From positions 30,779 through 94,778 of the forward strand of contig JAFSSE010000012.1 of the NCBI GenBank assembly GCA_017445755.1: a stretch of 64,000 nt of DNA, read 5' to 3'. The notes beneath the pieces were generated by a model. It worked only from the letters and a program-made list of their open reading frames with translations, was not told the origin of the DNA and made no database searches. A program made the translations under genes and the position numbers. Source of the stretch: Bacteroidales bacterium (GTDB lineage: Bacteria; Bacteroidota; Bacteroidia; Bacteroidales; UBA932). Positions 1,645 through 31,803 of the stretch are shown piece after piece (the first letter of the stretch is position 1; each line of letters begins with the position of its first letter).

Positions 1645-3069
1645 TTAGAGGATTTTCTCGATATTGAGTTCCCGGTGGGAAAGGGTTATCTTCACGTCGA
1701 ATTTACCGGCGAGGTGTTTAGCAAGATGCTCCGCCGCATAGACCGAACGGTGCTGGCCGCCGGTACAGCCGAAACAGACCTGCAGGTGGGTGAACTTACG
1801 TTCCATGAAACGTTTGACATGCGCGTCAACCAGTTTGTAAACGCTGTCCAGGAAGACCTTGATTTCGCCGTCATCCTCGAGGAAACGTATAACCTCGGGG
1901 TCGTTGCCGTTGAACTGGCGGTAGTGCTCGTACTTCCCGGGATTGTTTATCGAACGGCAGTCGAAGACGTAGCCGCCACCGTTTCCGGTACTGTCCACGG
2001 GAATTCCCTTCTTGTAGGCAAAACTGCATATCCTCACCTCGAGCCGGTGGTCCTCCGTAATCTCATTGAACTGAGGCATGGTGGTCAGCTTTGTGAGGAT
2101 TCCGTTGAGGTAAGGATACTGGTCAAACGGGGTCTGAAGCAGTTTCCGAAGGTTGGAAAGGGCATATGGAACGCTCCCGAGGAAGTGGGGCTTTTTCTCG
2201 AAATACCCCCTGAATCCATAGGCGCCGAGCACCTGGAGGGTCCTGAAGAGGACGAAGAGGCGGAGACGGTCCCTGAACTGCTCCTCGTCCACATCGGGGA
2301 CAAAGGTTCTAAGCGCACGGAGATAAGTCCGTATCATCTCTTCCTTGAGGTCCTCCGGATAGCGGGACCTGGCCTGCCAGACGAAGGACGCCACGTCGTA
2401 GTAAATCGGTCCCCTGCGTCCGCCCTGATAGTCTATGAACCAGGGCTCTCCGTCCCGGATCATGACGTTTCTGGCCTGGAAGTCCCTGTACATGAAGGTA
2501 TTCCCCATCTCGCCGAGGAGATCGGCCTTAAGCCGTTCGAAGTCGTCCTGGAGCTCGACCTCATTGAATTCGAGGCCTGTTGCCTTCAGGAAACAGTACT
2601 TGAAATAATTCAGGTCAAAGTCCACCATCCTCTCATCAAAGGCGGGCTGGGGATAGCAGACACTGTAATCGAGCCCCTGAGCCCCACGGAACTGGAGCTT
2701 CGGAAGCTGTTCGATTGTCCGGCAGAGGAGATTGCATTCGTAGGAACCATAGGATCCGCTCTCGCGACCCTGGGCCACGAGATCATACAGGACCTTGTCT
2801 CCGAGGTCCTCCTGGATATAGCACATCCCGTCCTCGCTTACGGAAAAGACCTGGGGAACACGGAGTCCCTTGTCCCGGAAATGGCGTGTCAGGCCGATGA
2901 AAGCCCGATTTTCCTCGAGTGAGGTCCCGACTACTCCGACGACGGAAACATCCCCGCCCTTAAGGCGGTAATAGCGCCGGTTGCTTCCGGAAGACTTCAT
3001 CTCGATTTTCTCCGCAAGCGGCTGATGGGTATAGGATTCAAAGAGAATCCGAAGCATATCTTCTGCCAT
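1645..3069 (-). CDS. Fusion of AmgK-like amino-sugar kinase and RapZ C-terminal domain
   Basis: 474 residues. The N-terminal ~330 are an aminoglycoside-phosphotransferase-fold kinase with the catalytic loop YRDFQARN (Asp about 196) and metal Asp in FIDYQGG (about 213), closest to AmgK, the anomeric MurNAc/GlcNAc kinase of cell-wall recycling. Residues ~343-474 are a RapZ C-terminal domain: FDCRSINNPG followed by GCTGGQHRSV (about 434-443), the motif that in E. coli RapZ lies at the glucosamine-6-phosphate site. ATG at 3069 is chosen because an in-frame TTG at 3090 lies inside the -7 box TAAATTTG. It is followed directly by the MurU-like gene. The fusion suggests a kinase regulated by, or coupled to, amino-sugar phosphate sensing (inference). 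Confidence 0.85.
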   Translation of the reverse strand: MAEDMLRILFESYTHQPLAEKIEMKSSGSNRRYYRLKGGDVSVVGVVGTSLEENRAFIGLTRHFRDKGLRVPQVFSVSEDGMCYIQEDLGDKVLYDLVAQGRESGSYGSYECNLLCRTIEQLPKLQFRGAQGLDYSVCYPQPAFDERMVDFDLNYFKYCFLKATGLEFNEVELQDDFERLKADLLGEMGNTFMYRDFQARNVMIRDGEPWFIDYQGGRRGPIYYDVASFVWQARSRYPEDLKEEMIRTYLRALRTFVPDVDEEQFRDRLRLFVLFRTLQVLGAYGFRGYFEKKPHFLGSVPYALSNLRKLLQTPFDQYPYLNGILTKLTTMPQFNEITEDHRLEVRICSFAYKKGIPVDSTGNGGGYVFDCRSINNPGKYEHYRQFNGNDPEVIRFLEDDGEIKVFLDSVYKLVDAHVKRFMERKFTHLQVCFGCTGGQHRSVYAAEHLAKHLAGKFDVKITLSHRELNIEKIL

Positions 3070-3087
3070 GTTTTTTTCTTTAGCATC

Positions 3088-3095
3088 CAAATTTA
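3088..3095 (-). promoter_or_regulatory. -7 box TAAATTTG for the AmgK-RapZ/MurU operon
   Basis: Perfect TAnnTTTG on the minus strand, 19 bases before the ATG at 3069. It contains the TTG that would otherwise look like a start codon. Confidence 0.6.
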
Positions 3096-3202
3096 CGGAT
3101 TTTTCATCGAAATTGCCTATATTCGTGGAAATTTTATAAAATTACCCTGTCTTCGGACGGCATAATAATTGCAATTTTCCGTACGGATCAAAAACATACA
3201 TT

Positions 3203-3556
3203 ATGAAAAAAACTGTATTGAACCTTATTCTGGCCTGCTGCGCCCTCGTTCTTGCGTCTTCAGCAAACGTATTCGCCGCCCCTGTCCAGGAAGAAAATCT
3301 CTCTGGCTTTGTCCAGACTAACACCGATGTCAAGACCATCGTCCTGACAGATGCCGGTGAGAACAAGGTCAAGGTTATCAAACTTATCCGCGACTACCTC
3401 GGAATCGGTCTGAAAGAGGCCCACGCCCTCGTAGGAGAGACTCCTGCCGTCATTAAGGAGAACGTCCCCTCCAAGGAAGCCGAGAAGCTCGCCGCAAGTC
3501 TCCGCGAGCTCGGTGCAAAGGTGGAGCTCAAAGCAGGACAGCCGGCCGAAGAATAA
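3203..3556 (+). CDS. Secreted protein with a ribosomal L7/L12 C-terminal-like domain
   Basis: 117 residues. Residues 1-25 form a typical Sec signal peptide ending VFA before APVQEE. The remainder (about 43-111) reads like the C-terminal domain of ribosomal protein L7/L12: the VKVIKLIRDYLGIGLKEAH run, then a P-x-x-I-K-E-N-V loop, then a final EAEKLAASLRELGAKVELK helix-strand. In L7/L12 this domain recruits translation factors, but here the protein is exported and lacks the L7/L12 dimerisation domain. Its role is unknown; a periplasmic protein-binding adaptor is a guess. The porin gene starts 19 bases downstream, so the two are probably co-transcribed. Confidence 0.85.
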   Translation: MKKTVLNLILACCALVLASSANVFAAPVQEENLSGFVQTNTDVKTIVLTDAGENKVKVIKLIRDYLGIGLKEAHALVGETPAVIKENVPSKEAEKLAASLRELGAKVELKAGQPAEE

Positions 3557-3575
3557 ACCGGCCGTCTCCCGGTAG

Positions 3576-6218
3576 ATGCAAGGAAGCTGGTCGAAAATAC
3601 TGGTGCCCCTGACACTGGTCGGGATGGCACTTGCAGGCACGGGTGGAAATAATTTCCACGGCGTGCCGTCTGCGTATATGAGTGTACGCTCCATCGACCC
3701 CGACTCCCTGCGCATCAACCCCGGCAAAGACTCCATACGTACCCGTCCGGTATATACAATCCAGCACCCCGCAGGGGAATATATCGACTGGGAGGACATT
3801 GAAGATATCTATGAGGAGACCGAAGAGACGGATACGGTGCCGCTCTTCACAGCCAGGGATACCATGGTCGTCCCGGACTCCCTCCGCGACACGGACCCCT
3901 TCCTCTACAAGTGGTACGTCGCGACAAAGGATTCACTCGTCCACCGGATTGTAGTCGATTCCCTGAAAAACGCCGGGGACACCACGGACTGGGTCATCAT
4001 AGACTCCCTCTACCTTAAGGACTCGACGGATATTGCCGTAAAGGCCTTCAACGAGTGGTACAATTCCCTCGACAAGGCCGCCCGGAAGGCGTACGACTAC
4101 AAGCAGCAACTGCCCATCCTCCTTCACCGCCAGGACAGCATCCTCCATCGGAAAGATTCAATCCGGAACCGCCGGGACAGCATTTTCGAGAACACGCCAC
4201 GTATCCTCGAGACCGCCTACCTGCCGGATTCCCTGCAGTACAGGAGGATGCTCACATGGCACCATGACCGGGCGTTCAACCGGGTGGAGCTCTTCGACTA
4301 CGACACGACTTTCAACTACCGGTTCCACGATTATCCATTCCAGCGGGAAGATGTCGGTGCGACCTGGCTGGGCATGGCCGGGTCCGCGGTCATGACCCAC
4401 AATTTCTTCAAGCGGGGAAAGGTGGAAAGCGTCAGTTTCTTCGCCCCGTACGAGACCTGGACCGAAAATCCGGAGTCGATTCCCATATTCAATACGAAGA
4501 CCCCCTATACCGAACTCCAGTACAGCGGGACCCTTCTTTCATCGACCATGAAGGAGTCCAACAACCTCCGCCTTTTCACTACCCAGAACATCTTCCCCCA
4601 GCTGAACATCGCCCTTGAATACCGGCGCTACGGCGGCAGCGGCATCCTCCAGAACGAGGCGACCGACAACCGGACCTCGATAGTGTCCGGGAACTGGATG
4701 GGCAAGAGATATCTAGCCCACGGAGGGTATATCCACAATAAGGTGACCCGCGGGGAAAACGGCGGCGTCAGGGATATCATGTGGATCAGGGACACCCTGG
4801 TGGATGCCCGTGAAATATCCGTCAACCTCTCAGGGGCATCCAACACATTCAAGAAGAACACCTTCTTTTTCGACCAGAGTTACCGCCTGCCCCTGTCCTT
4901 CCTCCTGAAACTCATCAAGCCGGGAGCCGATTCTCTCGAGACGGAGAACCTCTCGAGCGCCTTCGTCGGAACCTCCACCGAATACACCACCTATACGAAG
5001 CTCTATAATGACGCAATATCGGCCTCCAACTCGGTTGAGAGCGCGTTTTTCAATGACCGCTTCTACATCAACCCGACTAAGAGCGCCGACTCGCTGAGCA
5101 TGACGCGCTTCGACAACAAGGTCTTTCTGAGAATCCAGCCATGGTCCGAAAACGCGGTTCTCTCCAAGATTGAAGGGGGCGTCGGGAACCGGTACCTCAG
5201 CCACTACATGCCAGGGAGGAACTCCTATCTGACAACCCCTGAAAAAACCGTCTGGAATACCTTCTATACCTATGCAGGAGCGGAAGGACATCTTCCGGGG
5301 AATATCTCATGGAATGCCTTCGGCCAGATCGACCTTATCGGCGCCGAAGCGGGAGACACCTACCTCGGGGCCGATGCGAAAATGGTCCTGCACCCGTTCC
5401 GAAGGGACAGAAAGAGCCCGATGACCTTTTCCGCCTCGATCTCCGAAGAGCTGGACACCCCCGACCTGTTCCAGCAGCAGTTCCACTCCAACCACTACTC
5501 CTGGAACAGTTCCTTCGACAAGGTCTCCACAACGAAGATCCAGGGTTCGGTTGACATCCCGAAATGGCGTTTCGCCGCCTCAGCCGGCTACGCCCTTCTG
5601 GCAAACAATATCTACTACGATACGCTCGGCGTGGCCCGCCAGAATGCGGAGCCCATGAGCGTCCTTTCCGCTGCGGTGAGGAAGGACTTCGTAATCGGCG
5701 ATTTCCTCCACCTCGACAACAGCGCCCTCATTCAGTATTCCTCCAATGAGGAAGTCCTGCCCCTTCCGCTCCTGGCCCTGAACTTACGCTGGTACATCCA
5801 GTTCAACGTTGTCCGGAAGGACGTCATGCAGATGCAGCTCGGGGCGGATACCCGCTATACCACCCCGTGGTACCTGCCTTCCTACAATCCCGTGACCGGG
5901 ACCTTCATGGCCCAGAATGCCTACGCCTACGGCAACTGCCCGGTCTTCGACCTGTTCATGAATATCCAGTGGAAAAAGGCCTGCCTCTTCGTCAAATGGG
6001 AAAATGCCGGCCGCGGCTGGCCAATGTCCAAGAGGGACTATTTCAGCGCCCACCGCTATATATCGACTGACCGGGAAATCAAAGTCGGTATCTGGTGGCC
6101 CTTCTACGTCAGTTCCAAGCAGCAGAAAACGATGTCCGCCCGGGCCGGATCCGGCATGAGCGGCGGTGGAGGCGGCTTTGGAGGCGGGCTCGGAGGCATT
6201 AAAAACCTGGGAAGATAG
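3576..6218 (+). CDS. Putative porin, Bacteroidota outer-membrane beta-barrel
   Basis: 880 residues with an N-terminal hydrophobic export signal (KILVPLTLVGMALAG). A charged Asp/Ser/Arg-rich stretch to about residue 220 contains repeated DSI-x-x-RKDSI-like segments. Then comes a long region of alternating hydrophobic/aromatic strands with many Tyr, Trp and Asn, typical of a large beta-barrel. The organisation matches the Bacteroidota 'putative porin' family. The C-terminus ends in a Gly-rich tail (GSGMSGGGGGFGGGLGG) after the barrel, which is unusual because most barrels end in a strand with a terminal aromatic residue. It sits between the secreted L7/L12-like gene and a lytic transglycosylase 3 bases downstream. 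Substrate unknown. Confidence 0.75.
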   Translation: MQGSWSKILVPLTLVGMALAGTGGNNFHGVPSAYMSVRSIDPDSLRINPGKDSIRTRPVYTIQHPAGEYIDWEDIEDIYEETEETDTVPLFTARDTMVVPDSLRDTDPFLYKWYVATKDSLVHRIVVDSLKNAGDTTDWVIIDSLYLKDSTDIAVKAFNEWYNSLDKAARKAYDYKQQLPILLHRQDSILHRKDSIRNRRDSIFENTPRILETAYLPDSLQYRRMLTWHHDRAFNRVELFDYDTTFNYRFHDYPFQREDVGATWLGMAGSAVMTHNFFKRGKVESVSFFAPYETWTENPESIPIFNTKTPYTELQYSGTLLSSTMKESNNLRLFTTQNIFPQLNIALEYRRYGGSGILQNEATDNRTSIVSGNWMGKRYLAHGGYIHNKVTRGENGGVRDIMWIRDTLVDAREISVNLSGASNTFKKNTFFFDQSYRLPLSFLLKLIKPGADSLETENLSSAFVGTSTEYTTYTKLYNDAISASNSVESAFFNDRFYINPTKSADSLSMTRFDNKVFLRIQPWSENAVLSKIEGGVGNRYLSHYMPGRNSYLTTPEKTVWNTFYTYAGAEGHLPGNISWNAFGQIDLIGAEAGDTYLGADAKMVLHPFRRDRKSPMTFSASISEELDTPDLFQQQFHSNHYSWNSSFDKVSTTKIQGSVDIPKWRFAASAGYALLANNIYYDTLGVARQNAEPMSVLSAAVRKDFVIGDFLHLDNSALIQYSSNEEVLPLPLLALNLRWYIQFNVVRKDVMQMQLGADTRYTTPWYLPSYNPVTGTFMAQNAYAYGNCPVFDLFMNIQWKKACLFVKWENAGRGWPMSKRDYFSAHRYISTDREIKVGIWWPFYVSSKQQKTMSARAGSGMSGGGGGFGGGLGGIKNLGR

Positions 6219-14502: not shown

Positions 14503-16593
14503 TTAGAACTCCGCCGTAAAACGTACCGAAGGGAACAGCGGGAATATATAAATCTGTTTCCAGCACATATCCTCGGCATCATAGACCAGGGACACCGGAT
14601 TGTGCCTGTTCAGGAGATTGTATACTCCGGCATTCAAACTCATGGGATGCCGGTTCTTTTCCCATGATACGGTGCAGCCGAAATCCATCCGGATATATGC
14701 GGGCATACGGTAATTGTTTTTCCCCGAGTACCATTCGACAGGATCCGCTTCCTGCTCCTTAAGAAGCCACGGGGTAAACGACCCGACCGAGACTGTCTCG
14801 CAATGACCAGACTGGTATGTGAAGAATGCGTTCAGCCGGATATTGAATCCTGGTCTGGAAAGAAGAAGGCATGAACCGGTAGCGTTCAGGATGTGTGGGC
14901 GGTCAAACTGGGAAGGAAAAGGTTCGCCGCCATTAAGTTCAGCGAACAGGCGCGTAGAGTTGGAATAGGTATAGGCAAGCCGCAAGGACCATTCTTTCCT
15001 CTGATATTCAGCAAGGAACTCTATTCCCCTGGACGTGCCGGAACCGATGACGACGTCGCTTTTCCATCCGGACAGCGAGGGGCTGAATAGATTGACGGCG
15101 TTCCTGTAGTAAACAAGATTATCCATCCCCTTGTCGTAAACGTCTGCGGAAAGTGACAGGTTCTCTGCTCGATAAGACAGTCCGGCCGTCCACTGAAACG
15201 CCGTTTCATATGGAAGATCCCTGCTGGAAGGAACCATCAGATCCAGCGACCATCCCATGGGCAGCCCCTCGAGCTGATGGAAAAACTGGGAACGGTAATC
15301 AGCCGATAATTCTATGCTGAGCCCGCGCGACAGACCGATCGATGCCGCAACATCAAATTCCGGAACAAAGAACGATTCCGCCTTCTCGGGCTCTTCCGGA
15401 AAGTAGCGATAATTATTGACCCTTCCTCCGGCCCGAAACGTCAGCCAACGGAAAAGATTGCCGTTTATCTGGGAAAAGAGTGTCGTGAGGACGGACGGTC
15501 TGCTTTTTTCGGAAAACGCCGATTCCGAAACTGACGGCCTGTCGCCGGACTCAAGATCATATTTCGCTCCCGGGAGAAAGGATGAAACCTGGCCATTGAC
15601 TCCCAAAAGCAGATTTGTCTTTTTGCCGAGGCCGACTGTTCCGGAAGAAGAAAACGTTGCCTCCTTGACTGAACTCTCCACCGCGAAAGTATTCAGGGCT
15701 GAAAGCTCCTGCAGAAGCGTTTGATCAGACAGGAACCGATTCCAGGAAAGAGAGTTTTGTACCGTCCACCGTCCCCACTGCCCCTCATGCCGCAGCTGTG
15801 AAATCCAGTTGTTCCAGGAAAATGTCCCCTTTGCCTGACGATAGGCAAAATAATAAGAATCTGTCGAGTAAAACGAGCTGATACTTAAGTGGTTCTTGTT
15901 ACCAATCCGCCAATTGACCTTACCGAATGCATCATAGACTGTTCCGGAAGCATCCTCCAGGGCCCCGGAAAAGACCTTGCATCCCCTGAGAAGAAGGGGC
16001 GCGGCGACCCCTGCAGGTGAACCTCTAAGGGAACCTATAAAAGAAAGGCGGCCACTCTTGTCAGGGACACTGATGTCCCCTCCCAGAAGGAAAAGCGACC
16101 CGCTTACATGGCTTTTCAGCCGGGAGGGAATCTCCCGGGAAGTCGTCATGGCAATATGGGCCGAGGTAAAATTGCCATAGGCGGGAGAGAATCCGCCTAA
16201 AGAGATTCCGGCATCGGAACACACAGAAAGCGGAATTGCCTGGGTAAAGCCAAGAAGGTGGGAACTGCCATATACAGGGACACCGTCAAGGGTTATACGG
16301 CTGTTTCCTATGTTCCCTCCCCGCACATAGACTGCGGAACCTCCGTCTGACCCGGAAGACACGCCGGGAAGGAATTGGGTGAATTTAATAACATCGGGGT
16401 CGCCCATCGGAGTCACCTGTGACCTCAACGCAGTTTCCTGTACAGTATAACCGCCCCCGCCAAGGCGGATGAAACGGGACGATTCTTTGACGGCCGCTGC
16501 AAGGGTATCCTGACGTTCGGTCTCCTCCTGGGCGAAGAGCGCCCCGGAGACAAACAGTAGGGGGAAAAGCAGAATATGATGCAGTCGGGACAT
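14503..16593 (-). CDS. TonB-dependent outer-membrane receptor
   Basis: 696 residues. A signal peptide (cleavage after ALFA) leads into a short N-terminal segment and a plug domain with VYVRGGNIGNSRITLDGVPVYG (about 88-110), then a 22-strand-type barrel ending in FPSVRFTAEF, with terminal Phe as expected for BAM recognition. It is at the short end for the family and lacks the carboxypeptidase-D-like N-terminal domain common in Bacteroidota receptors. The ATG overlaps the stop of the DUF4249 gene by one base. It is the last gene of a three-gene operon with a cysteine peptidase and DUF4249 lipoprotein. Ligand unknown; peptide import is inferred from context. Confidence 0.9.
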   Translation of the reverse strand: MSRLHHILLFPLLFVSGALFAQEETERQDTLAAAVKESSRFIRLGGGGYTVQETALRSQVTPMGDPDVIKFTQFLPGVSSGSDGGSAVYVRGGNIGNSRITLDGVPVYGSSHLLGFTQAIPLSVCSDAGISLGGFSPAYGNFTSAHIAMTTSREIPSRLKSHVSGSLFLLGGDISVPDKSGRLSFIGSLRGSPAGVAAPLLLRGCKVFSGALEDASGTVYDAFGKVNWRIGNKNHLSISSFYSTDSYYFAYRQAKGTFSWNNWISQLRHEGQWGRWTVQNSLSWNRFLSDQTLLQELSALNTFAVESSVKEATFSSSGTVGLGKKTNLLLGVNGQVSSFLPGAKYDLESGDRPSVSESAFSEKSRPSVLTTLFSQINGNLFRWLTFRAGGRVNNYRYFPEEPEKAESFFVPEFDVAASIGLSRGLSIELSADYRSQFFHQLEGLPMGWSLDLMVPSSRDLPYETAFQWTAGLSYRAENLSLSADVYDKGMDNLVYYRNAVNLFSPSLSGWKSDVVIGSGTSRGIEFLAEYQRKEWSLRLAYTYSNSTRLFAELNGGEPFPSQFDRPHILNATGSCLLLSRPGFNIRLNAFFTYQSGHCETVSVGSFTPWLLKEQEADPVEWYSGKNNYRMPAYIRMDFGCTVSWEKNRHPMSLNAGVYNLLNRHNPVSLVYDAEDMCWKQIYIFPLFPSVRFTAEF

Positions 16594-17657
16594 TATTTGA
16601 AATCATCTTTATAGCCGCGGAGGGCCCGTTCCTGTTCACGGTAAACAAGGGCACCGAAAACTCCGGTGCCGCCCTGGATGTTTGAGTAGACGTTATCGTG
16701 GTCATACACGTAACGTATATCCCGACCTTTGTTTTGCTCTTTCTGGTAAATGTCTTTCAAATAAAGGTCCAGTTCATCAGAAACAGCATATATATCAAAT
16801 ATTCCGCCCTCTGTCGGTTCGTAGTCCCGCGGATAATCCGTAATCAGTATGAAACTCTGGTCGGAATATAGCGGAGAATCATTCAACTCGTCGTAGGGAT
16901 ATCCGTTTGTGAAGCCGGTAGGGAATCTGAGGCGCACCATCTGGCTATGCATCGGGAGATCTGAATATTTATCACGAATCCATATTTTCTGCGAAAAAAT
17001 TGATGTTTTCCAAAGCTTGACAGAATCTTTTCTGAAACACGGCAACTCTCCGACAGTCTTCTCTGTCTGATTAAAATCGTCGACAAGCGGATGCGTAGTC
17101 GCTATGTCCTGTCCCTCCTTATGAAAAATCCAAAGATTTGCGCTCTTTCTGTATGCTGCTCCCCTCAAGTCTTCATAAGTATAGTAATCATGGTAGAAAC
17201 GGCGGATTCTAAGTTCGCAAGAACAATAAAGGTAATTGATAACCAACCCGGGCCGTATCTTCATAAACTGTTTTACATAAAACTCCTGTGGGAAAGTCGT
17301 TTCCGCCGAAAGGATTTCCCTGTCTGCAGTCGATACGGAAAGAGAATAGCGGCCGCCATATTCCGGTACCATGGCGCAGGCCCACTCTGATTCGGTATTT
17401 CTTCTAAATTCCCAACACTCGTCCTGTCCCTTCCCGGACAGCATGACCCGGATACCGTCCGGGAGCGCCTGCGGCACTGCCGTCCCGTGCGGAGACAACA
17501 CCTTGAGGGAAAGGGTCTGCACCGAGTCCCGTGTCAGGATACAATGGACCGACAGCGGCAGATTCTCCGCCGGTGAGAAGTCCACCGGTTCCACACACGA
17601 TGCCATCAAGGCGGCGTACGCCGCCGCAGCAATCATATGTAAAACCTTATTGTTCAT
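16593..17657 (-). CDS. DUF4249 lipoprotein, partner of the TonB receptor
   Basis: 354 residues with a lipoprotein signal (lipobox LMASC). The body fits DUF4249: an N-terminal beta-sandwich-like region with GRYSLSVSTADREILSAETTFP and a C-terminal half rich in aromatic residues. DUF4249 genes are regularly found next to TonB receptors in Bacteroidota and are presumed surface-exposed accessory lipoproteins, by analogy with SusD. The coding sequence begins 11 bases inside the 3' end of the peptidase gene and ends 1 base inside the receptor gene, so all three are translationally coupled. Confidence 0.85.
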   Translation of the reverse strand: MNNKVLHMIAAAAYAALMASCVEPVDFSPAENLPLSVHCILTRDSVQTLSLKVLSPHGTAVPQALPDGIRVMLSGKGQDECWEFRRNTESEWACAMVPEYGGRYSLSVSTADREILSAETTFPQEFYVKQFMKIRPGLVINYLYCSCELRIRRFYHDYYTYEDLRGAAYRKSANLWIFHKEGQDIATTHPLVDDFNQTEKTVGELPCFRKDSVKLWKTSIFSQKIWIRDKYSDLPMHSQMVRLRFPTGFTNGYPYDELNDSPLYSDQSFILITDYPRDYEPTEGGIFDIYAVSDELDLYLKDIYQKEQNKGRDIRYVYDHDNVYSNIQGGTGVFGALVYREQERALRGYKDDFK

Positions 17658-19416
17658 CTCCCAGCCGTATTACTCTCGCCAAGTCCCCACACGGGGTGTA
17701 ATAACTTACCCAGACAGAGGGCTCCACCCCGCTTCCGTCCGTTTCAAAGTCCACGTACCGATATCCTTGATACAGAGGTGTCCAATCGGGATTGTCGCAC
17801 TCCCATGAAAAGCCATATGCTCCCGCAGGACATGAAAAACTATATACACCTTCAAATCCGGAAATCAACTCCGAAGAAAAATAGTTCCCTACGCCCCAAA
17901 GTGTGATGTCTTTATAAATATCAATGTTTATCCCGGCTGACACGTTTGCATGAATAGTAGAACTCGTGAACGGACTGCTTATAAAGCATCCGGCTGTTGT
18001 AGAAGATGACGTCGTAGAGTAAAAATAAACATTTGTACCTGACCAAGTTATACCGGCACTTGAGGGAAGACCTGTTATATAATAGGTCCCGTTGTAATTA
18101 TTTGACAAATTTGACGGCCCTTGTATTGCCGATAACTGAGGCGTCTCCAAGGTATTGATTTTTCCGCTATACTCCGGATATGACTCATATTGAGGCGTTT
18201 CAATTGCATTATCCGCCATCTGGGCATATGAAAATGCTTCGTAAAAAGAAATACCTGTCAAATCGTCGATATCCGCATCAACGGAACTCTCGTCTCCCAC
18301 AACATACCCTTTCATTGAAGACATCCACCAGAAAAGGAATGCATCATATTCCAGGTTGCTCCTGGCATAGGATTCTTCATCCGCAGCGCACGCCGTTGCT
18401 ATAGAAAAGTTCGGCTTATTCATGGCCCCGACAAATCCTCCGCTATAACACTGGCCCATCACTATTCCGGTATGGCCCGAATAGTTATGCAGCTTATTGA
18501 CCTCCGTCCTGAACTCGGACGGAGATAACAACTCGTTATTCCATAGACGAATATACGAAGTGTTACCTATCCGCTCACCGTGATCACAGACATATATGAA
18601 CACATCGTCCCCGTCTGCGACTTGTTGACCAAGGGATGTGAAAACTGATTGCAAATTTGATTTAGTCGCCGAATATAAATTGCTCTCTGTGACTCCATCT
18701 CCATCATAATCTGTAGGAGACGATACAAACGGACCCGTTATACGCTGACCATTCAGATAGTAATCATAATAACACAGGTTCATATCTTCATCCGAAGATG
18801 TTCCATCAGACATCAACAGGTAGATATGGCTTTTATTATAGTTATAATTCTGGGTCAGAATACGGAACATCTCGGAACAGTCATTCCAGTAGCGCTCGTA
18901 ATTGTTTTCCTTTGTGACGCCACCGCTAATGATTACAGCCCAATTATTACTGGATGAACTGCTTTTGGTGGTTTGGACTGATCTGTTTCCCGCAGAATTA
19001 TGGACTGTCCTGGACGGAATATCGGTAGGATATCGGAACCCCCACCATTTTCCGTCGTCTTCGAAAATGAAATAACGTTTCTCTGGCTCAATAAAGATGA
19101 CACCCGTCTTTGCATTCACAAATACGTATCTATATTTAGCTAAGCCATTTGATAGAGACTCGTACATCACGACCATCCACGACAAATAATTAGGAGTATA
19201 ATAATCCGGAGCATAAGCCCCCTGCTTAATCGCTGTTTTCGGCTTAAGCGGTTCCGCTGAAATAAATGCACAGTCAAACATTTGCCACAGCTCTTCCGTA
19301 AGTTCTATGGCCTGATCACGGCTCACCAGAGAACCGTCCTCGTTATAGTATCCGCTGTTTTTCCGGCAGGAAAACAACACCAGCAGAATAAAAAGAAACA
19401 ATACATTACGTTTCAT
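17647..19416 (-). CDS. Clan CD (C13/legumain-like) cysteine peptidase lipoprotein
   Basis: 589 residues. It begins with a lipoprotein signal (LVLFSC). Residues about 35-130 look like a PepSY-type propeptide (SWMVVMYESLSNG, YRYVFVNAKTGVI). After a Ser-rich linker comes a caspase-fold domain with WAVIISGG, then DDVFIYVCDHGER (His279) and GIVMGQCYSGGF (Cys323); this His-Gly/Cys order and spacing is the legumain/clan CD dyad. The last ~150 residues are beta-rich and resemble an Ig/PKD-like module. The codons are clearly AT-richer than the flanking genes, suggesting transfer. First gene of the operon with DUF4249 and the TonB receptor, with its own -7 box. C13 versus C11/gingipain-like family is not settled. 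Confidence 0.75.
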   Translation of the reverse strand: MKRNVLFLFILLVLFSCRKNSGYYNEDGSLVSRDQAIELTEELWQMFDCAFISAEPLKPKTAIKQGAYAPDYYTPNYLSWMVVMYESLSNGLAKYRYVFVNAKTGVIFIEPEKRYFIFEDDGKWWGFRYPTDIPSRTVHNSAGNRSVQTTKSSSSSNNWAVIISGGVTKENNYERYWNDCSEMFRILTQNYNYNKSHIYLLMSDGTSSDEDMNLCYYDYYLNGQRITGPFVSSPTDYDGDGVTESNLYSATKSNLQSVFTSLGQQVADGDDVFIYVCDHGERIGNTSYIRLWNNELLSPSEFRTEVNKLHNYSGHTGIVMGQCYSGGFVGAMNKPNFSIATACAADEESYARSNLEYDAFLFWWMSSMKGYVVGDESSVDADIDDLTGISFYEAFSYAQMADNAIETPQYESYPEYSGKINTLETPQLSAIQGPSNLSNNYNGTYYITGLPSSAGITWSGTNVYFYSTTSSSTTAGCFISSPFTSSTIHANVSAGINIDIYKDITLWGVGNYFSSELISGFEGVYSFSCPAGAYGFSWECDNPDWTPLYQGYRYVDFETDGSGVEPSVWVSYYTPCGDLARVIRLGDEQ

Positions 19417-19446: not shown

Positions 19447-19454
19447 CAAATGTA
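19447..19454 (-). promoter_or_regulatory. -7 box TACATTTG for the peptidase-DUF4249-TonB operon
   Basis: Perfect TAnnTTTG on the minus strand, 30 bases before the peptidase ATG. A TTGG lies about 22 bases further upstream. Confidence 0.6.
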
Positions 19455-19651: not shown

Positions 19652-19960
19652 ATGGACTTAAAAAAGTATTCGAACACCCAGATACTGCAGATGCTAGGGC
19701 TGAGGTTCAAGGATTACAGGTTGATGATGAACCTTTCCCAGGGAGACCTGGCCAAGGCGGCCGGGGTTTCTGTTTCCACAGTCCACAAGTTTGAGACAGG
19801 TACAATCACGAATATGAACATCACCAACCTGATGGCCCTGCTCCGACCAGTTGGCCTGTTAGACCGGTTCGATGACTTGATTCCGGAGCAGCCCGAGAAT
19901 CCATACTTGACTACTACGGAGCATCAGAGGCAAAGAGTCAGGAGGAAGAACAATGGCTAG
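19652..19960 (+). CDS. hipB: HipB-like XRE antitoxin
   Basis: 102 residues. A helix-turn-helix of the XRE family covers about residues 15-70 (LRFKDYRLMMNLSQGDLAKAAGVSVSTVHKFETG). The C-terminal tail is basic (HQRQRVRRKNN). HipB proteins neutralise HipA kinases and repress the operon. The stop overlaps the hipA start by 8 bases, and a strong Shine-Dalgarno-like GGAGGAAG precedes the hipA ATG within this gene. The pair sits between two copies of a direct repeat. Confidence 0.88.
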   Translation: MDLKKYSNTQILQMLGLRFKDYRLMMNLSQGDLAKAAGVSVSTVHKFETGTITNMNITNLMALLRPVGLLDRFDDLIPEQPENPYLTTTEHQRQRVRRKNNG

Positions 19961-21452
19961 GAATATAGACAATGGCCGCCTGAGTGTCATGCTCTGGGGA
20001 CAGGAGATTGGGCAAATCTGCTGGAATCCGAAAAAGGGGAACTCATATTTTTTCTTTTCACACGATTATCTTGCTTCGGGGCTGGATATCGCACCTCTGA
20101 CCGCTTCGTCGAAAAGTCCTTCTGCCCGTTTCGCTATCTATGGCAACACGGATTCCGCGAAATATCAGAAACTCCCGCCCTTCATCGCGGATTCCCTTCC
20201 CGATGATTGGGGCAACACCCTTTTCGATCAGTGGTTCACCGAGCATCATTATCACGAAAAAGACAAGACTCCCCTGGCGAAACTTTCCTTTGTCGGCAGC
20301 CGCGCTATGGGTGCTCTTGAATTCATTCCCTGCAGCGAGGAATCCTTCAGCGCCAATGAAAAGCTGATAATCCCGAAACTGTATGAACTGGCGAAGAAGA
20401 TCGAACAGGACCGTGAACACGCCATCATCTCCCCGGAAGAGACCCTTACACAGAAAGCGCTGATGGCTGTCGGCACGTCCGCCGGCGGGCGGTTCAAGAA
20501 AGCGATTATCGCAATGGATGAAGGTGGAAACATCTTCTCCGGCCAGACTTCTGCACGGGGAGACCGGAAGTACTACATCCTCAAATTCAATACCCCTGAG
20601 TTCTGTCTCTCGGAGATAGAGAAGACCTGGTATGACCTTGCTACAACGGCGGGCATCACGATGATGCCCTCTCGACTGATTGAAGTGGAAGGCATCCACC
20701 ATTTCCTGACCGAACGGTTTGACCGTCGCGCCGGTGAGAAGGTCTTCACCCAAACGCTCGCAGCGGTCAATCCCGAGGCATATTGCTATGAGGATCTTTT
20801 CTCCACCTGCAGACAGCTCTCTATCCCACAGGATGAGCTTAATGAGCTTTACTTGCGGATGGTGTTCAATATCCTTTCCAACAATACGGACGACCATGCT
20901 AAGAATTTCTCTTTCATCATGGAAAAAGACGGATCCTGGCACCTCTCCCCTGCTTATGATCTCTGCTTCATTTTGAAGACCGCTGCCGTGCCCGAGAAGA
21001 ATCACGAGTTCTCCATTCGTGGGAAATTCGAAGATATCACCCTCGCAGACCTCCTGGCCTTCGCCGCCCAGAACGATATCAAAAATCCCGCGAAGTACAT
21101 CGAAAAGGTCAAGGACACGCTCCGTGATTTCAGGGCGCTGGCGACATCGAATGGCGTCGCTCCCCTCTTCATCGACATAATAGAGACACGACTGCGTGAA
21201 CTCTCTCCGGATGTCTTTGCTCCGGCCGTCGTCACTCCAGATCTTATCCGGTTCGAGATGACCGACTCTGGAAACATCCATTTGTATGCGACAATTGACG
21301 GCCAGGAAAAACGACGGGTCTTCACTAAGAAAAGCAAGCAGTATGAGGCCGTTCTCGATGCCATGAAAAAAACGCTCTCGAAAGAGGAACAGAAAGAGAT
21401 TCTTGAAAGGTATTTGGGTTTTTTTCATATATTTATAGATGATGAAATCTAA
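19953..21452 (+). CDS. hipA: HipA-like Ser/Thr kinase toxin
   Basis: 499 residues, somewhat longer than E. coli HipA (440). It has the HipA N-terminal subdomain (RLSVMLWGQEIG), the FIADSLPDDWGN segment, the catalytic loop NNTDDHAKNFS (residues 310-320) and the metal-binding AYDLCF (about 335-340). HipA kinases phosphorylate aminoacyl-tRNA synthetases such as GltX and arrest growth. Extra residues lie C-terminal to the kinase core. The final codons (IDDEI) are encoded by the right copy of the direct repeat, so the native C-terminus may have been replaced on insertion. The catalytic residues are intact, so the toxin should be active. Confidence 0.9.
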   Translation: MARNIDNGRLSVMLWGQEIGQICWNPKKGNSYFFFSHDYLASGLDIAPLTASSKSPSARFAIYGNTDSAKYQKLPPFIADSLPDDWGNTLFDQWFTEHHYHEKDKTPLAKLSFVGSRAMGALEFIPCSEESFSANEKLIIPKLYELAKKIEQDREHAIISPEETLTQKALMAVGTSAGGRFKKAIIAMDEGGNIFSGQTSARGDRKYYILKFNTPEFCLSEIEKTWYDLATTAGITMMPSRLIEVEGIHHFLTERFDRRAGEKVFTQTLAAVNPEAYCYEDLFSTCRQLSIPQDELNELYLRMVFNILSNNTDDHAKNFSFIMEKDGSWHLSPAYDLCFILKTAAVPEKNHEFSIRGKFEDITLADLLAFAAQNDIKNPAKYIEKVKDTLRDFRALATSNGVAPLFIDIIETRLRELSPDVFAPAVVTPDLIRFEMTDSGNIHLYATIDGQEKRRVFTKKSKQYEAVLDAMKKTLSKEEQKEILERYLGFFHIFIDDEI

Positions 21453-30588: not shown

Positions 30589-31803
30589 TTAATCCTGGGT
30601 TTGGGAAACAAGGTGCATTGTATCGCGAGCAATGACCAGCTCTTCGTTTGTGCAGATGACGACGGCCTTGACCTTCGAGTCCGGAGTCGAGATAAGGGCA
30701 TCGTGGCCGCCGGTCATATTGGCCTCATAATCGACCTTGAGGCCGAGATACGAGAAGTTTTCAAGGACGCGGCGGCGGAGGCGGCTGTTGTTTTCGCCGA
30801 TTCCGCCGGTGAAGACGATCAGGTCTACGCCGTCCATGACAGCCACATAAGAGCCGATGTTCTTGATGATGTCATAGGTGAATTTCTTGAACGCGAGTTT
30901 CGCCTTGGGGTCGCCGTCATTCGCAAGGACGTTCATCTCGCGGGCGTCGGAGGTCTTCCCGGTGAGTCCGAGGAAGCCGGACTTGCGGTTCAGTATCGTG
31001 GACATCTCGTCGGGAGTGGTTCCGAGCTTTTTCATCAGGAAGAGGACGGCGTTGGCGTCGATATTGCCGACGCGGGTACCCATAATCATGCCTTCCAGCG
31101 GAGAGAAGCCCATCGAGGTATCGACGCAGCGGCCGCCTTCGATTGCGCAGATCGAGCTGCCGGCACCGAGGTGGCAGGTGATGATCTTCGATTCGGCGAT
31201 GTCGAGCCCTGCGAAGCGGGCGCCCTTGCCGGCGACATACTGGTGGGAGGTGCCATGGGCGCCGTAGCGGCGGACACGGTACTGCTCGTAATACTCATAA
31301 GGGAGGGCGTACATGAAGGCCTTCGGGGGCATTGTCTGATGGAAGGCGGTGTCGAAGGTTACGACCTGCGGAACAGTCGGAAGGACATGGCTGATTGCAC
31401 GGATTCCGAGGAGGTGGGCAGGGTTATGGAGAGGGGCGAACTCGGCGCAGTACTCGATTTTAGCGAGCACATCGTCGTTCACTATTGCACTTGAGGAGAA
31501 GAAATCACCACCCTGGACAATCCGGTGGCCGACTGCCTCGATGTCTTCCAGGGAGGAGAGGACGCCGTTTTCAGGATCCACGAGGGCGGAGAGAATCAGC
31601 TGCATGCCGACCTTATGATCCGGGATCTCTATATCCTTGACAATCTTTTCTTTCCCTGACGGGGCATATTGGAGGACACCCATGGGGAGTCCGATTTTTT
31701 CTGCGATTCCTTTGGCGATTACATCAAAAAGGTCATCGCTTTTCATGTCGAGAAGCTGGTATTTGATTGACGAGCTTCCGCAATTGATAACGAGAATGAT
31801 CAT
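30589..31803 (-). CDS. ackA: Acetate kinase
   Basis: 404 residues from ATG 31803; the upstream in-frame codons overlap the 5' leader. Motifs include INCGSSSIKYQL (nucleotide fold), HRIVQGGD, FDTAFHQTMP, YGAHGTSHQYV, CHLGAGSSI, DTSMGFSPLEG and FTGGIGENN, the full acetate-kinase set, and the length fits AckA rather than butyrate kinase (about 355). AckA converts acetyl-phosphate and ADP to acetate and ATP. A perfect -7 box TAACTTTG is at 31825-31832. It heads the ackA-ptb pair and is divergent from comEC. Confidence 0.95.
   Translation of the reverse strand: MIILVINCGSSSIKYQLLDMKSDDLFDVIAKGIAEKIGLPMGVLQYAPSGKEKIVKDIEIPDHKVGMQLILSALVDPENGVLSSLEDIEAVGHRIVQGGDFFSSSAIVNDDVLAKIEYCAEFAPLHNPAHLLGIRAISHVLPTVPQVVTFDTAFHQTMPPKAFMYALPYEYYEQYRVRRYGAHGTSHQYVAGKGARFAGLDIAESKIITCHLGAGSSICAIEGGRCVDTSMGFSPLEGMIMGTRVGNIDANAVLFLMKKLGTTPDEMSTILNRKSGFLGLTGKTSDAREMNVLANDGDPKAKLAFKKFTYDIIKNIGSYVAVMDGVDLIVFTGGIGENNSRLRRRVLENFSYLGLKVDYEANMTGGHDALISTPDSKVKAVVICTNEELVIARDTMHLVSQTQD

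Follow-up and report, generated by a model that had tools for sequence, protein, structure and literature searches.

A C13 peptidase lipoprotein joined to a DUF4249–TonB receptor pair in Bacteroidales: one variant of a core with an exchangeable front gene

Why should the gene of a predicted surface peptidase be joined end to end with those of a DUF4249 lipoprotein and a TonB-dependent receptor? The question is raised by three minus-strand genes at 14503 to 19416 of a 64,000-nucleotide stretch (hereafter the window; forward-strand positions 30,779 to 94,778 of contig JAFSSE010000012.1, assembly GCA_017445755.1) from a Bacteroidales bacterium of the UBA932 lineage. We found that this trio is real and conserved, that it would be a variant of protease-associated TonB import, and that it is one case of a wider pattern of exchangeable front genes, which the original prediction for this DNA had missed. 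As far as gene neighbourhoods go, they show a constant core of DUF4249 and a TonB receptor, in many loci fronted by one predicted exported protein of an exchangeable class, the commonest of which appears to be a cysteine-peptidase zymogen (C13 in the window, C10 with a Spi propeptide elsewhere). This exchangeable, repeatedly inactivated or missing front is the most interesting part of the finding, more than the single trio. As to function, 'cut, bind, import' is a plausible scheme, and a protease-associated TonB import operon of gut Bacteroidales that follows it by means of a surface zymogen is a reading to which we give a little less than an even chance. The three genes are as follows.

17647..19416, minus strand: front gene, a C13 (legumain-fold) lipoprotein peptidase of 589 amino acids (open reading frame (ORF), Pfam, phmmer, alignment, structure model)
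16593..17657, minus strand: DUF4249 lipoprotein of 354 amino acids (ORF, Pfam)
14503..16593, minus strand: TonB-dependent receptor of 696 amino acids without an N-terminal extension (ORF, Pfam)

In the ORF list of the window the three frames overlap end to end by 11 bases and then by 1 base. Pfam identified Peptidase_C13 in the front protein (5.8e-16, 59.2 bits against a cut-off of 22.8), DUF4249 (PF14054) in the middle protein (2.1e-10, 41.1 bits against a cut-off of 28.5), and a TonB barrel (7e-16) and Plug (3.2e-5), both above their gathering cut-offs, in the receptor. Lipobox-like cysteines, judged by eye, are present in both lipoproteins. DUF4249 was the sole match of the partner lipoprotein at E values up to 1, with no SusD-like match, and no carboxypeptidase-like N-terminal domain was reported by Pfam on the receptor. 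The overlapping layout and the lack of the common receptor extension were thus as first predicted, and it is well supported that the three genes form one unit.

The case for a system depended on whether the trio occurs only here. Relatives of the peptidase were present in 13 of 398 genomes of the same family and in 8 of 393 of the same order, the window's own genome being counted in both. A single-protein query of the named-species genomes found no relative; an alignment query of 84,980 such genomes returned 72 loci of a widened C13 family. The complete order of peptidase, DUF4249 and TonB receptor was found in seven loci, namely the window, L061, L062, L063, L066, L068 and L130 (L numbers denote loci, and figures after a colon are positions within them). 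The six beyond the window belong to five other Bacteroidales genomes, L063 and L066 being in one genome. A free-standing gene for the N-terminal domain of the peptidase sits between DUF4249 and TonB in L066, and L061 has a second peptidase–DUF4249 pair in tandem. In L071, L204 and L205 the C-terminus of a peptidase lies at the contig edge and is followed by DUF4249, and two loci are decayed (L065, with a DUF4249 fragment only, and L070, which is broken). DUF4249 stands beside the peptidase in eight of the 72 named loci (L129, L130, L134, L135, L150, L155, L180 and L197), all of which except L130 coincide, judged by length, with contigs in L061–L070. The carriers are uncultured Bacteroidales or Bacteroidia, several of them from the gut of horse, roe deer, reindeer and water buffalo; that of L197 is Candidatus Egerieousia. 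Two further observations concern these loci. L061:2017-15018 forms one run with two peptidase–DUF4249 pairs, two receptors and a free N-domain gene, and its genes at 2017-3721 resemble, by eye, an extracytoplasmic function (ECF) sigma factor and an anti-sigma factor. In L205 the gene after DUF4249 (L205:6674-7801), at the place expected of the receptor, encodes a protein with a PNGase F C-terminal domain (1.7e-6).

The linked peptidases are only 29-34% identical to that of the window. In a tree of 58 catalytic domains the nine linked C13 proteins nevertheless form one side of a branch (Shimodaira–Hasegawa-like approximate likelihood ratio test 82, not starred), and linkage requires one change on this tree, compared to a shuffled mean of 8.5. 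Most simply, the link between C13 and the core would have had one origin and been kept while the sequences diverged. The outcome that the original prediction had named as its refutation, a trio confined to this DNA or homologous peptidases never linked to the pair, did therefore not occur. The 20 examined neighbourhoods of high-scoring C13 proteins of the same bacterial family (L079-L098) had no DUF4249 or TonB match by the first profiles; their C13 domain is placed further along the protein, and we take them as another lineage.

Is the C13 peptidase essential to this arrangement? We collected the genes lying upstream of 108 DUF4249 ORFs, using a DUF4249 profile built from C13- or N-domain-linked members, so that the shares of front classes are not population rates. 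The ORF caller was greedy and not a gene finder, and 'none' denotes no recognised front among up to three same-strand genes with gaps of up to 250 bases. Upstream regions were readable in 58 of 65 TonB rows: 28 had none, 11 C10, nine C13 (two of these, L071 and L204, being contig-edge C-termini), seven a family with a YNCHSYAW motif, two the N-domain only and one a serpin. The C10 fronts are streptopain-type peptidases with a Spi (I69) propeptide. Among 15 such fronts scanned by Pfam, 14 had the C10 domain and all 15 an I69 match (two below the cut-off), L259 having I69 without a C10 match. No curated family exceeded its cut-off in the YNCH class. The sole serpin front (L227:944-2185, 3.8e-89) lies directly before a DUF4249–TonB pair and also points to extracellular proteolysis. 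On the TonB tree of the 58 rows at least 24 changes of front class are required, a parsimony minimum from one quick tree that includes changes to and from 'none'; the shuffled mean was 27.5, and values as low occurred in 7 of 200 shuffles. The core thus stays constant while its front genes turn over, and these cluster on the tree only mildly.

Some of these loci also share what precedes the front. Ahead of the L062 trio lie genes for a TPR protein and for a small protein that matches DUF3244 below the cut-off, and similar gene pairs precede some C10 and YNCH fronts. Among five loci scanned by Pfam, TPR was found in L062, L203, L259 and L201 and not in L244. The DUF3244 matches (L062, L207, L256, L265 and L303) were all below the curated cut-off, and the small genes of L203 and L248 had none. 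A protein of about 555 amino acids and a small gene often precede C10 fronts. C10 genes with Spi were seen before or near DUF4249/TonB in L203, L244, L248, L252, L261, L262, L270, L271, L275, L278, L279 and others, and YNCH fronts at L256:2075-3538, L265:4263-5813, L272:4078-5517, L273:3940-5364, L207:7031-7831 and L255:4705-5484.

What kind of enzyme, then, is the front protein of the window? The original prediction named a clan-CD peptidase similar to C13 or C11. The family is C13 and not C11, and the clan named was the right one. Human and plant legumains were matched by phmmer (best 1e-6), and the predicted dyad is of the legumain type, with H279 in DHG and C323 in QCYSG. In a 67-row alignment, histidine was present at 279 in 57 of 60 lettered rows and cysteine at 323 in 55 of 59, the misses including in each column one stray letter from rows without a catalytic domain. 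The dyad of the original prediction was thereby borne out. The features of the catalytic and C-terminal parts are given below.

18580..18582, minus strand: codon of the catalytic His279 (alignment)
18448..18450, minus strand: codon of the catalytic Cys323 (alignment)
18157..18954, minus strand: catalytic domain, residues about 155-420, legumain fold (model, Foldseek)
17650..17874, minus strand: C-terminal beta-strand region, residues about 515-589, block-mean predicted local distance difference test score (pLDDT) 54-83 (model)

The AlphaFold model built on the 67-row alignment had a mean pLDDT of 76.7, with ten-residue block means of 87-98 over residues 161-420 but 69-74 at 211-230; an earlier model from eight rows (mean pLDDT 54.3) was not used. 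With this predicted model, the top Foldseek match was legumain 4n6o_A (E 6.9e-12, probability 1.00, TM-score 0.63 by target length), and a glycosylphosphatidylinositol (GPI) transamidase chain ranked 14th. Fold and catalytic dyad are thus common to legumain and the window peptidase. Legumain has a C-terminal prodomain. The window protein differs in being a predicted lipoprotein of bacteria that carries an N-terminal domain of its own and ends in a beta region.

The dyad is not kept by all front proteins. It is intact in eight of the nine linked C13 proteins, and L068, with a complete trio, lacks both residues. Among linked C10 proteins both residues were kept in 17 of 23 rows (21 loci) and the cysteine was absent in six, compared to 32 of 33 unlinked C10 proteins with the cysteine kept. 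The difference (6/23 versus 1/33) gave a Fisher p of 0.015 with kinship ignored. On the C10 tree each of the seven losses, of which six are linked and one is not, counts as a separate change, and an independent-pairs sign test on this tree was not significant (median p 0.125, range 0.031-0.625), so that the enrichment of dead peptidases among linked C10 is a hint. Two linked C10 proteins found later and standing outside the Fisher test, L225 without the cysteine and L269 with the dyad kept, bring the numbers to 18 of 25 kept and seven of 25 lost. The linked class is a loose one, with intervening genes in L270, L271, L294, L295 and L300, and with no TonB gene called directly after DUF4249 in L239, L266 and L278; L315, whose DUF4249 and TonB genes follow at a distance of about 2 kb, was scored as unlinked. 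Of the eight rows that show the YNCH motif, two being one gene in overlapping stretches, three have it altered (C/H letters in L265, L207 and L272).

Such losses raise the possibility that the peptidase fold mainly holds a protein or peptide near the receptor, with cutting secondary. The excess of cysteine losses in linked C10 proteins, to which the later pair adds one case with and one without the residue, the double loss in L068 and the loci with the N-domain only would fit such a binder. Most linked enzymes, that of the window included, keep the dyad, however, and the independent-pairs test was not significant; we consider this explanation very doubtful. A broader version, that DUF4249–TonB receptors include a class of protease-fronted importers in which unrelated cysteine-peptidase families were recruited to one slot and repeatedly made into non-catalytic binders, the fold serving as an exchangeable substrate adaptor of the receptor, is in our judgement rather unlikely.

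Front peptidases can also be missing. Two species of the window's genus supply a pair of loci, L071 and L201, that share 98.4% identity along 3388 bases, a span taking in DUF4249 and almost the whole TonB gene. The shared stretch begins (L201:7733, L071:262) no more than 19 bases before the end of the L071 peptidase ORF, counting its stop codon, so that L201 retains only the tail of a peptidase gene, with a TPR gene upstream. Most simply, the L201 peptidase was lost by deletion. The contig of L071 breaks off within the peptidase gene, of which it holds just the C-terminal 92 residues. This pair of loci bears on the idea that the peptidase regulates import through maturation or shedding of one of its partners (DUF4249, the receptor or another lipoprotein nearby), which would suit both the gene overlaps and the grouping of linked C13 on one branch. 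The L201 core stands without a peptidase beside the near-identical L071, no front gene was recognised for 28 of 58 cores, and the unrelated peptidase families in the slot would need one common cleavage site, which makes such self-processing distinctly improbable.

The N-terminal domain of the window peptidase has a life of its own in relatives.

18967..19359, minus strand: propeptide-like N-terminal domain, residues about 20-150, free-standing in relatives (alignment, model)

Pfam had no family for this domain, either in the window protein or as a free-standing protein. Free lipoproteins of about 130-200 amino acids that match only the N-domain lie inside or beside four of the seven complete trios (L061, L063, L066 and L130), and two unlinked Prevotella loci, L137 and L138, have a free N-domain gene ahead of the peptidase, although in L138 the two ORFs are possibly one split gene. 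In L069 and L072 the free gene replaces the peptidase before DUF4249–TonB. L069 is the nearest in the set to the window core, with identities of 46.4% for DUF4249, 42.8% for TonB and 42.5% for the N-domain. We found no I69 (Spi) match at E values up to 10 in six rows (five free-standing N-domains and one broken peptidase). With signal peptides removed, hhalign of the N-domain against I69 gave a probability of 5.2, E 0.0074 and a score of 20.4 over 18 columns only, which exceeded all 20 column-shuffled controls (best 15.6); with signal peptides, the probability of 94.5 came from the signal-peptide end only. Ubiquitin matches of the N-domain profile (best E 0.00087) covered about 20-40 residues around one motif and were taken as chance. 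In layout, the free N-domain genes are analogous to SpeB/Spi, in which an inhibitory propeptide analogue is encoded beside the protease, according to the available part of the source (PMC2873492).

Swapping, inactivation and free Spi-like N-domain lipoproteins could also be marks of an arms race, with the core importing another nutrient and the front peptidase degrading bacteriocins or host peptides that exploit the receptor. The high turnover of front classes would agree with such a guard, as would the missing peptidase beside the intact core of L201 and the free N-domain genes at four of seven trios, at two Prevotella loci and alone before the core in two loci. But dead peptidases would not guard, and no toxin or immunity genes were recognised in the ORF lists, in which no systematic search was made. 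We regard a guarding role as unlikely.

How does the unit compare to known systems? RagAB and SusCD combine a TonB receptor with a surface lipoprotein and are fed by surface enzymes. Their partner is SusD-like, whereas that of the window is DUF4249, and the window receptor has no N-terminal extension, unlike those of RagAB and SusCD. The nearest concept is that of FusA/FusC and YddB/PqqL, where a TonB-dependent transporter is likewise combined with a dedicated protease, and which are proposed, in the available part of the source, to exploit protein as a nutrient source (PMC6793856). Their protease is described there as a periplasmic M16 metalloprotease acting after import (PMC6793856), whereas the window unit has a lipoprotein cysteine peptidase, lies in Bacteroidales and has a DUF4249 partner; in its relatives, unlike in Fus/PqqL, the protease gene can be exchanged for another, inactivated or absent. 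Receptor and protease do stand in one cluster in the window, but the protease is of C13 here and of C10, C13 or an unnamed family in relatives. As the defining M16 protease is absent, the window unit, with its unrelated protease and partner, would work like Fus/PqqL without being a member. The main text of PMC6793856 does not contain the words 'Bacteroidetes', 'cysteine' or 'lipoprotein'.

For the core itself, BT2172/BT2173, a TonB transporter and a DUF4249 protein, form a conserved operon like the window core and have similar consequences when disrupted; the available part of that account mentions no front peptidase (PMC11003636). The Bacteroides C10 proteases Bfp, with their small partner genes Bfi, resemble the window type as predicted lipoprotein cysteine proteases of a gut Bacteroidales species, but they are of another peptidase family and Bfi is staphostatin-like; the available part of that source describes no import partner, the word 'TonB' occurring once in the text (PMC2873492). 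By titles and abstract openings, partly those at the top of longer lists and with few subscription papers, we found no account of the trio in the open literature.

We return to the import operon. A lipid anchor, predicted from the lipobox, would place the peptidase zymogen on the cell surface, where the N-terminal domain may keep it inactive. Once processed, the peptidase might attack an extracellular protein and free or trim a ligand, either a peptide or a cofactor carried by the protein. DUF4249, acting either as a lid or as a lipoprotein for docking, would bind the freed ligand, which would then be taken up by the TonB receptor. Different front genes would match different carrier proteins, and fronts that are catalytically dead or consist of the N-domain only would bind or shield and not cut. 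We suggest this reading because the trio recurs in six other loci despite the low identity of their peptidases, because linked C13 fall on one side of a branch and C10/Spi holds the same slot, and because the TPR/DUF3244-like order is shared by L062 and some C10 and YNCH loci amid at least 24 front changes. The similar mutants of BT2172/BT2173 (in the available part of PMC11003636), the legumain-matching model and the serpin front also argue for it, as do the intact dyads in eight of nine linked C13 and 18 of 25 linked C10 proteins.

Several results weigh against this import reading. Nearly half of the readable pairs (28 of 58) have no recognised front gene. Among short-C10 loci, 33 of 40 were not scored as linked to DUF4249/TonB, these 40 having been chosen outside the DUF4249 survey and the neighbourhoods of C10 proteins of about 600 amino acids left out. 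No DUF4249 match was found in 64 of the 72 named wider-C13 loci within the stretch examined, a figure limited by stretch length (some contigs are below 4 kb) and by the DUF4249 profile. No relative in the PDB was found for the DUF4249 profile at E 1 or for the TonB profile at E 0.001. Finally, cores persist beside dead, truncated and missing fronts and hence do not depend on cutting for their maintenance: L068 is dead, L069 and L072 are reduced to the N-domain, the cysteine is lost in seven of 25 linked C10 proteins and L201 is without a peptidase, all of which speaks against an obligatory cutting step. Of the peptide-harvesting unit first proposed, the unit is well supported and the harvesting is plausible.

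What of the surroundings of the trio? As had been noted at first, the front gene is AT-rich, with a G+C content of 43.8% compared to 54.4% for the window. A recent arrival of this gene was rejected as a needed explanation: in all eight C13 front genes compared (seven loci) G+C is lower than in the other two genes of the trio, so that low G+C is a family trait and no mark of recent arrival. In the two N-domain-only loci the front gene is not the lowest. The promoter of its own that had been predicted for the front gene has a candidate element.

19447..19454, minus strand: TACATTTG, candidate Bacteroides -7 element, 38 bases before the front ATG (motif match)

The Bacteroides-type -7 motif, TAnnTTTG, has 28 matches on the two strands of the whole window, so that chance placement here is unlikely but possible, and the promoter is a candidate. 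Upstream, on the plus strand and divergent from the trio, lie a HipB-like helix-turn-helix gene and a HipA-like gene (19652-21452); downstream, the convergent neighbour encodes a HerA-like ATPase. Neither looks part of the unit. A search of the window's own genome, which is 82.9% complete, gave five DUF4249 genes and one C13. The genome also has two short C10 peptidases with intact dyads (L285:5349-6746 and L286:5911-7368), with no DUF4249/TonB beside them by the profiles used.

DUF4249 is an uncharacterised lipoprotein family of Bacteroidota, and the neighbourhoods described here tie it to extracellular proteolysis and supply a testable guess at what it binds. L071 and L201, which have almost one and the same core but differ in the presence of a peptidase, lend themselves to a natural comparison. 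If the import reading is true, gut Bacteroidales would own protein-foraging import units parallel to their polysaccharide loci, in which the peptidase front is exchanged by evolution.

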